Assembly (NCBI GenBank): GCA_027037535.1
Contig: JALVZQ010000007.1
Location: forward strand, 1-64,000
DNA length: 64,000 bases
Origin: Acidilobaceae archaeon
GTDB taxonomy: Archaea; Thermoproteota; Thermoprotei_A; Sulfolobales; Acidilobaceae
Direction of reading: 5' to 3'
The notes under the pieces are model-generated. The model was not told the origin of the DNA, made no database searches, and worked only from the letters and a program-made list of their open reading frames with translations. The first letter of the stretch is position 1, and every line of letters starts with the position of its first letter. Positions 56,966-58,611 of this stretch are shown one piece after another. A program made the translations under genes and the position numbers.

Positions 56966-58247
56966 TGGTAGCGGGGGGTGGATTTGAACCACCGACCTCG
57001 GGATCGACCTCCCCTACGGGAGTGTGTCTCCGAGGCCAGGGGCTGTCGGCCATTAACTATCATGTAGTTACTTATGATTTATTACGTTTTCGTTTATTCA
57101 AGATTATATTTATTGTGATAAATAATCATTAATGGTTTTTCTTAACTTATCGTTTTTAACAACCGAGAGTAGTTTCACGGCACAAGAAGACGATATCTTC
57201 AACATTATTCGGTTATCTTTTCTAATTATTGCACCAGGAAGCTTAATGGTGAGAGGGTTAGTTTCTAAATAAATAACTAGAATGGGACTTCGCTTCTCTG
57301 AACGCCTGTGATCAATATAACTAGATTTAAAGTATCGATCTATGATTCCCAAGTCTTCGTCTTCAAGTTTGCATTGTCTTAATGTTTTATTTTTAGCAAT
57401 GTTTATTAATCTATATAATTTTTTATTAATATAAATTAAATGTGATAAAAAGTCTGCATAGAATCCGTTGTTTAAAGTAAAAACATGTTCGTATTTTGGA
57501 TATCCATAGTATTTCTTTAGTGTTATCATTCCTCTTTTTTCTAATGTTTTGAGAATACATTCAATTATCTTTCCTTTTTCAGTGCTTTCTTTATAAGATA
57601 TTGATAGGTAATTTTTTCCGATATATCCGTCTCCTTCGATTATCCCAGAAAACAACCATAAGAGGTTGTCGTATTCTAGCGTTTGAAGAAAACGACATGG
57701 TTTATCTCTTATATGATTTAATAATTCGAAAAAAGTTCTTGAGACGGGATAAACTCTTACACTAAAATATGTTCCTGAGACATTCATTGGATTCCTATAG
57801 TGTGTTACAACAATCCTTTGTGATATTTTAAGGTAAGTTCTAAGAAATGCGATGGCTGATATTTCATTTAACCCTTGGAATTCTATTTTCTTTAATTTTG
57901 AGGTATTTTTTATAATTTTATATTTATAATAATATCCATCGGTAAGAAATAACCCGATGCCTTTAAAATAGTAATTAATATTAAACAAATTATTCGTTGG
58001 ATACAGCTCTATTTGTTTATATTTCTCTAAATAGTTTAGCAATTGTTTTACTTCACGCTCATCCAAACGAGAGTAAACACTAATCACTAGCTTTTTCAAG
58101 ATAAATTCCCAATTGATTGAAGTAATTGTATTACTATATCATTATTTTCGATAGGATGTAATGTTTTATTAGAATTAAGTTGAAGGAGGCGGCCGACAGC
58201 CCCTGCTCCTATGAGCCCCGCGGGCTGCCAGGCTACCCTACCCCGCT
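56966..58247 (-). tRNA. initiator tRNA-Met(CAT) interrupted by 1.2-kb insertion
   Basis: 5' part 58247-58210: AGCGGGG acceptor, D arm GGG...CCC, anticodon-stem strand CGGGG and loop CTCATA. 3' part 57004-56969: stem strand TCCCG, variable AGGTC, T arm GGTGG-TTCAAAT-CCACC, acceptor CCCCGCT, A, then CCA 56968-56966. Joined they give a 74-nt initiator tRNA (A1-U72, G-rich anticodon stem). The insertion (about 58209-57005, placed at the canonical 37/38 site) contains a homing endonuclease gene. Complementary 15-nt segments CAGGGGCTGTCGGCC (58205-58191) and its complement (57051-57037) lie near its ends. A strict bulge-helix-bulge could not be drawn by hand. Confidence 0.82.
57110..58099 (-). CDS. 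LAGLIDADG homing endonuclease inside tRNA-Met insertion
   Basis: 329 residues from ATG 58099. The LAGLIDADG helix is LWLFSGIIEGDGYIGK near residue 170; it is followed by a typical endonuclease-domain pattern (LSISYKESTEKGKIIECILKTLEKRG...). I see one clear motif, so a dimer or a degenerate second motif in the N-terminal half is expected. Composition is much richer in A/T than the flanking genes. Transcribed in the same direction as the tRNA, wholly inside the insertion. No obvious frame damage, so it may be active. Confidence 0.82.
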   Translation of the reverse strand: MKKLVISVYSRLDEREVKQLLNYLEKYKQIELYPTNNLFNINYYFKGIGLFLTDGYYYKYKIIKNTSKLKKIEFQGLNEISAIAFLRTYLKISQRIVVTHYRNPMNVSGTYFSVRVYPVSRTFFELLNHIRDKPCRFLQTLEYDNLLWLFSGIIEGDGYIGKNYLSISYKESTEKGKIIECILKTLEKRGMITLKKYYGYPKYEHVFTLNNGFYADFLSHLIYINKKLYRLINIAKNKTLRQCKLEDEDLGIIDRYFKSSYIDHRRSEKRSPILVIYLETNPLTIKLPGAIIRKDNRIMLKISSSCAVKLLSVVKNDKLRKTINDYLSQ

Positions 58248-58284
58248 GTTTTACCCCGCCGTGTTGTTGTTTGTTGTTTGGGTT

Positions 58285-58611
58285 TTATAAGGGTTTTTGG
58301 TGGAGTTTTGCGTGGTTTTTGAGTTTTTTGTGGAGTGTGGTTGGGTTGTTGTCTAGTGGTATGTGGGTGTGGTTTGTTGGTGTGTAGAGTGCTTCTAGGC
58401 AGTCTTGTTTTGTTGGTGCTATTATGATTATTGGTTTGTTTGTGTATTTTCCGGGGTATATGTAGAGGAATCGGGTTTGTCCTGTTTCGAGCATTGCTAT
58501 TGCTTCGCTGCATAGGCCTTTTTTCTCTGGCCTTGTTATTTTTACTCCTTGGCTGCGGAGGCCGTCCAGTAGCTGGTCTATGAGCTTATTCGAGCTCGAC
58601 AAGGTCGCCAC
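58285..58611 (-). CDS. small protein, unknown
   Basis: 108 residues from GTG 58611: SSSNKLIDQLLDGLRSQGVKITRPEKKGLCSEAIAMLETGQTRFLYIYPGKYTNKPIIIIAPTKQDCLEALYTP, then a His/Lys/Asn-rich tail. The N-terminal part looks structured alpha/beta. Overlaps the next upstream gene by 26 bases. No family recognised. Confidence 0.55.
   Translation of the reverse strand: MATLSSSNKLIDQLLDGLRSQGVKITRPEKKGLCSEAIAMLETGQTRFLYIYPGKYTNKPIIIIAPTKQDCLEALYTPTNHTHIPLDNNPTTLHKKLKNHAKLHQKPL

Follow-up and report, generated by a model that had tools for sequence, protein, structure and literature searches.

The window analysed here, a 64,000-nt stretch of an Acidilobaceae archaeon genome (assembly GCA_027037535.1, contig JALVZQ010000007.1, positions 1 to 64,000), contains an initiator transfer RNA (tRNA)-Met(CAU) gene whose parts flank an AT-rich insertion of ~1.2 kb. 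It is highly probable that this insertion contains a mobile bulge-helix-bulge (BHB) intron, which carries its own LAGLIDADG homing endonuclease gene and occupies position 37/38 of the genome's only detected initiator tRNA gene, together with a small, dependent intron at position 39/40. The results obtained directly are the anatomy of the locus, the geometry and conservation of the splice sites, the precise absence of the intron in relatives, its patchy distribution, and the intact catalytic motifs and predicted fold of the endonuclease.

Splice sites of the interrupted initiator tRNA gene

The first-pass annotation of the window described initiator tRNA parts of 38 and 36 nt around ~1.2 kb with a LAGLIDADG gene, all of which are present (Table 1), and perfectly complementary 15-nt GC-rich segments, which indeed pair 58205-58191 with 57051-57037. 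However, it read the 36-nt part as AT + 34 nt, whereas AC + 34 nt follows from the relatives and from BHB geometry. Its junction of 58210 to 57004 is probably wrong, the corrected junctions being 58210/57025 and 57024/57002. The tRNA intron with its own homing gene that it proposed is retained, in the sole initiator tRNA gene found, but as two introns rather than one.

Table 1 Features of the interrupted initiator tRNA locus in window coordinates
Feature	Position	Strand	Length	Basis or remark
Initiator tRNA-Met(CAU) gene, interrupted	58247-56966	minus		
TATA box of the tRNA gene (TTATAAAA)	58283..58290	minus		36-43 nt 5' of the mature 5' end
Exon 1, tRNA-iMet(CAU) mature positions 1-37	58210..58247	minus	38 nt	spliced alignment
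Intron 1, position 37/38	57026..58209	minus	1184 nt	BHB geometry
Exon 2 (AC), mature positions 38-39	57024..57025	minus	2 nt	BHB geometry
Intron 2, position 39/40	57003..57023	minus	21 nt	BHB geometry
Exon 3, mature positions 40-73 and encoded CCA	56966..57002	minus		34 nt at 57002-56969, CCA at 56968-56966
5' arm of the GC-rich intron stem (CAGGGGCTGTCGGCC)	58191..58205	minus	15 bp	perfect complement of the 3' arm
3' arm of the intron stem (GGCCGACAGCCCCTG)	57037..57051	minus		perfect complement of the 5' arm
Pyrimidine-rich stretch 3' of the 5' stem arm	58166..58190	minus		terminator-like in relatives; putative function
LAGLIDADG homing endonuclease gene	57110..58099	minus	329 aa	TTG start; same strand as the tRNA

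In order, the window reads CTCATA, the insertion, ...GCCTCGGAGAC, AC, ACTCCCGTAGGGGAGGTCGAT and CCCGAGG. The dinucleotide AC was assigned as an exon because without it the product would lack CTCATAACCCCG, which forms the loop and stem in every uninterrupted relative, and the spliced window tRNA matches the reading of uninterrupted relatives, CTCATAACCCCGAGG (as in L077 and L078). The BHB of intron 1 has all five outer pairs, three of four central pairs, 3-nt bulges (TA^G and AC^A) and inner GAG/CTC pairing, and that of intron 2 likewise has 3-nt bulges. The two-intron model gives the same geometry, with 3+3 bulges, for both introns in ten genes (the window gene and nine others), and the consensus mature anticodon loop and 3' strand in all ten. 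One pair of the intron 2 central helix varies among C-G, U-A and U-G over 11 sequences, and sliding the partner strands cuts intron 2 pairing from 90% to at most 61%. The covariation score was reached by 71 of 500 shuffles; this shuffle control is weak because the structure is mostly invariant, and the slid-partner control and splice geometry carry the support instead.

In the outer helix of intron 2, the 3' end of intron 1 (CCTCGG) pairs with exon 3 (CCGAGG), while the outer helix of intron 1 is complete only once intron 2 has been removed. The order of splicing would thus be obligate, and intron 2 must probably be excised before intron 1. When folded with a short linker standing in for most of the insertion, the insertion ends and stem reach -92.5 kcal/mol, compared to -65.7 for shuffles (z -6.5). 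The stem arms of relatives have other sequences but keep their pairing, mostly as perfect arms of 12-20 nt. The upstream TATA box has a position weight matrix score of 12.0, close to the median of the orthologues' 5' promoters, and the GC content of intron 1 is 30% versus 43% for the window. A group I intron was rejected as a candidate: an Rfam scan of the insertion matched neither a group I catalytic core nor any other RNA at E<=5.

These features suggest a splicing pathway in which the precursor RNA would fold so that the 15-bp stem keeps the splice sites together, and the tRNA splicing endonuclease would remove intron 2 first. This would supply C39-CCCG and complete the outer helix of the intron 1 BHB, whereupon intron 1 would be excised and the exons joined, presumably by RtcB. 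At the DNA level, going by what is known of the family, the endonuclease would target the conserved anticodon-arm sequence of alleles that lack the intron and cut them there, and repair would copy the intron into the cut allele.

The genome (1.65 Mb, 99.94% complete, 8 contigs) was also searched throughout for a second intact initiator tRNA gene, which the first-pass annotation had named as counter-evidence, and none was found. The 28-nt 5' segment of the tRNA occurs once genome-wide with up to 3 mismatches allowed, the initiator-type T arm has one exact match, the remaining matches being elongator tRNA arms, and the genome's 43 tRNA matches include no further initiator-type gene. Two other CAU tRNAs have different acceptor stems and correspond to elongator Met and presumably Ile2. 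As both halves occur once and no other initiator-type gene was found, the interrupted locus is very likely the source of the cell's initiator tRNA. Because default ARAGORN and Rfam scans miss this gene, the essential initiator tRNA may go unnoticed by standard gene finders where introns are long. Ordinary short introns, in some cases at non-canonical positions, are present in many of the genome's other tRNA genes (tRNA loci L018, L021, L022, L024, L027, L033-L035, L037-L039, L041 and L042), and several anticodons of the genome's tRNAs were apparently misassigned by ARAGORN.

The intron endonuclease and its relatives

The endonuclease gene lies in a stop-to-stop frame of 342 aa. It is not a chance frame, because it spans 329 codons in DNA of 29% GC and both catalytic motifs are conserved in homologues. 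The two LAGLIDADG motifs read IGLFLTDGY and FSGIIEGDGYI, and the catalytic residues D54 and D157 are invariant across 9 homologues. In the AlphaFold model of the protein (predicted local distance difference test score, 85.8), the fold matches I-DmoI, I-SceI and PI-SceI; the 43 best fold matches in the PDB are all LAGLIDADG proteins, comprising endonucleases and a maturase, with I-DmoI among them many times. A profile match to the I-DmoI/I-CreI chimera has an E value of 0.002. The window endonuclease is apparently intact, with a predicted I-DmoI-like fold. A viral origin was considered and rejected, as no relative of it was found in viral contigs.

The survey of the element's distribution took in 214 genomes from the order and 229 from the class. 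Endonucleases of the window's type, termed class A, occur in the 37/38 intron of the initiator tRNA in G000 and ten other genomes (G004, G021, G056, G157, G159, G077, G087, G089, G137 and G217), and these ten span families f1, f2, f9 and f13 and two orders. These genome counts are not counts of independent gains, and in several relatives, which are metagenome assemblies, the intron is interrupted by contig ends; the G004 locus spans two contig ends and the G021 locus lies at one. All class A introns with a readable 3' end are accompanied by intron 2, and G011 retains a 505-nt remnant of the 37/38 intron. Precise absence of the intron, which the first-pass annotation had proposed to look for in relatives, was seen in two genomes of the same genus, where an intact initiator tRNA is flanked by homologous genes. 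In the survey, 56 resolved initiator genes are uninterrupted. The intron thus combines precise absence at the syntenic site in close relatives with a patchy presence. A small endonuclease tree mostly follows host family, with G217, from another order, falling within it. The named records of the family include Desulfurococcales and Thermodiscus metagenome-assembled genomes, and the record names suggest a hydrothermal habitat.

Shorter and unusual introns were also observed. Introns of 176-253 nt without an open reading frame (ORF) in L063, L072, L073 and L074 (G033, G024, G032 and G016) have similar GC-rich stem arms, and three of the four have an internal TATA box; these introns are likely remnants of endonuclease introns. 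Those of G016, G024 and G033 retain the stem, and their splicing gives the consensus tRNA. In L149 (G116:C58:1400-3500), a 1616-nt intron at 37/38 of the initiator tRNA (~355-1970) contains no recognised endonuclease and a complete antisense gene for a 463-aa archaeal ATPase_2/AAA protein, and was apparently colonised by this cargo gene. Weak class A matches in much longer frames, such as a RecA/RadA-like protein with intein features in L055, were set aside as ordinary inteins.

Two further endonuclease classes occupy the same tRNA. Class B endonucleases lie in an intron at 30/31, antisense to the tRNA 5' half (G029, G082, G044, G138, G081, G079, G080, G036 and G152, several of them decayed), and class C endonucleases in T-arm introns around positions 57-60 (open frames in G036, G157, G079 and G083; decayed in G081, G159, G134, G135, G138 and G155). 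The intron positions of classes A, B and C match the known break points of split and permuted archaeal tRNAs, 37/38, 30/31 and 59/60 (PMC3218864). Examples are L107, L109, L110 and L111 for class B and L088, L111, L112 and L211 for class C. Any relationship of either class to class A is distant, and several genomes hold two of the three. An extra LAGLIDADG-like ORF of 292 aa lies near the initiator tRNA locus in L109 (220-1095; G082:C54).

Split tRNA genes and alternative readings

A different arrangement, possible though not probable for the window, is a split tRNA with adjacent halves, in which a promoter within the 'intron' would drive the 3' half, the 5' half would terminate in the pyrimidine-rich tract, and the homing gene would lie between two separate transcripts joined by trans-splicing through the stem. 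A promoter matrix built solely from the 5' promoters of these initiator tRNAs was used to scan 29 large introns or split 3' halves; in 25 of them, compared to a mean of 4.7 and a maximum of 10 for shuffles, the best TATA match starts 30-45 nt 5' of the 3' stem. A pyrimidine-rich tract follows the 5' stem in 26 of 26 introns or split halves (0.71 versus 0.49 further downstream). The GC-rich complementary leader and trailer of split tRNAs pair over about 14 bp; the window has 15 bp, perfectly paired. Genuinely split genes occur in G161, G163, G046, G152 and G036, and the 121-nt 'intron' of Aeropyrum pernix tRNA-Asp, which has an internal promoter and a 14-bp stem, was shown by northern blot to separate two transcripts (PMC3218864). 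In the window, however, the best internal TATA match around the expected site has a score of 3.3, which is lower than the 5th percentile of genuine tRNA promoters and does not exceed shuffles (p 0.68), and the endonuclease gene lies on the tRNA strand, where read-through is possible. As an internal promoter is thus unsupported in the window, cis-splicing stays the default there.

Three other explanations were weighed against the two-intron model. If a two-base exon is penalised, spliced alignment prefers a single 1205-nt intron at 37/38 (58209-57005), with the exon resuming at 57004, and the spliced product retains a tRNA-Met fold, with G31-U39; this model was nonetheless rejected, and we consider it very unlikely, because it forms no BHB (1-2 of 4 central pairs) and leaves inconsistent mature bases, as nucleotides 38-39 would differ among relatives and often break the initiator G31-C39 pair. 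It is hardly credible that the locus is a dead, disrupted pseudogene and that the real initiator tRNA sits in an assembly gap: the 8 contigs and the decayed endonuclease genes of some relatives would allow it, but the genome is 99.94% complete, the tRNA stems and TATA box are all intact, and the splice geometry is conserved in other families. We likewise doubt strongly that the endonuclease is a splicing helper (maturase) or a domesticated protein rather than part of a mobile element. The bI3 maturase is among the good fold matches and the endonuclease tree roughly tracks host families. Against this, the protein splicing endonuclease suffices for BHB splicing, the presumed remnants of G016, G024 and G033, which have no endonuclease gene, still have the stem and give the consensus tRNA on splicing, presence is patchy, and the catalytic residues are retained.

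Several points weigh against the mobile two-intron reading itself. The evidence is entirely sequence-based, and splicing, promoter use, cleavage and homing are inferred from it. Most genes have one mismatch in the central BHB helix, and there is a small chance that a further tRNA gene lies in an assembly gap, as the genome is in 8 contigs. The window protein matches no Pfam model at E<=1, so that the LAGLIDADG assignment rests on homologues, 8 of 9 of which weakly match LAGLIDADG_3 (PF14528; best E 0.002), and on the fold. The ratios of nonsynonymous to synonymous substitution rates (0.2-0.55), which suggest maintained function, were taken from three close homologues, with the window gene itself outside the sample. 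Finally, recent lateral transfer is not demonstrated, because the endonuclease tree largely groups by host family.

Among the relatives, the initiator tRNA is in places truly divided. In G152 and G036 the break is at 30/31 and the 3' half lies in the opposite orientation to the 5' half; a class B endonuclease lies between the inverted halves, decayed in G152 (L115/L168/L191, C14) and intact in G036 (L111/L192, C25). In G161, G163 and G046 the halves are on different contigs, whereas in their congeners G160 and G162 they lie on one strand, 242 and 147 nt apart. This genus (L169-L172 and L194-L198) therefore includes two species with tandem halves and an internal TATA box, and three with separated halves, apparent stages of tRNA splitting. 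The internal promoters of relatives may mean that the halves are transcribed separately, the 'intron' shading into a 'split tRNA'. A promoter inside the element would drive the 3' half separately, and the halves could then drift apart or invert, as in G152, G036, G161, G163 and G046; the endonuclease would subsequently decay, leaving a trans-spliced tRNA. Chan et al. (2011) proposed an agent of unknown identity that acts specifically on certain tRNA sequences (PMC3218864). On balance, we lean slightly towards homing introns that target the initiator tRNA gene as the agent creating split archaeal tRNA genes.

Relation to known systems

What caused archaeal tRNA genes to break up into pieces with transcripts of their own is a long-standing question that is now testable: one tRNA gene is found intact, intermediate, inverted and fully separated in related genomes, several of which contain homing genes or their likely remnants. 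Homing introns may thus be the unknown tRNA-splitting agent. Their presence at three positions of the start tRNA suggests that such elements exploit the most conserved target available. The literature on tRNA introns, archaea and homing endonucleases yielded no archaeal tRNA case, with subscription journals mostly outside coverage. The novelty that the first-pass annotation suspected stands to that extent; the element is no singleton, however, but belongs to a family at three positions of the initiator tRNA in two orders.

A bacterial group I intron endonuclease aimed at the anticodon region of tRNA-fMet (Bonocora and Shub 2001, as cited in PMC3984707) offers, as far as that citation describes it, a convergent parallel, a homing endonuclease intron in the anticodon region of an initiator tRNA; unlike that self-splicing group I RNA, the window insertion contains no detected group I RNA. 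Split tRNAs are known for tRNA-Asp of A. pernix and Thermosphaera and tRNA-Lys of Staphylothermus (PMC3218864). The window differs from these in the homing gene between its halves and its weak candidate promoter; like theirs, its halves are joined by a long GC-rich stem at 37/38 or 30/31, and its relatives show an internal promoter and inverted or separated halves. The first-pass annotation was right that archaeal tRNA introns are short, 11-129 nt in the literature (PMC4090602, PMC3218864), and that endonuclease-bearing BHB introns are known from ribosomal RNA (rRNA) genes (PMC4496867). The window intron resembles the former in its position at 37/38, its BHB motif and the multiple introns in one tRNA, but is ~10 times longer and protein-coding.

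The rRNA introns with LAGLIDADG endonucleases, such as I-DmoI in Desulfurococcus 23S, I-ApeI and the 16S introns of Thermoproteales (PMC4496867), have the same BHB splice sites, two-motif LAGLIDADG protein and predicted fold, a patchy distribution, and short remnant introns at the same site. In contrast to these, the window element lies in a tRNA anticodon arm together with a dependent 21-nt intron, and in its relatives an internal promoter precedes the 3' half.
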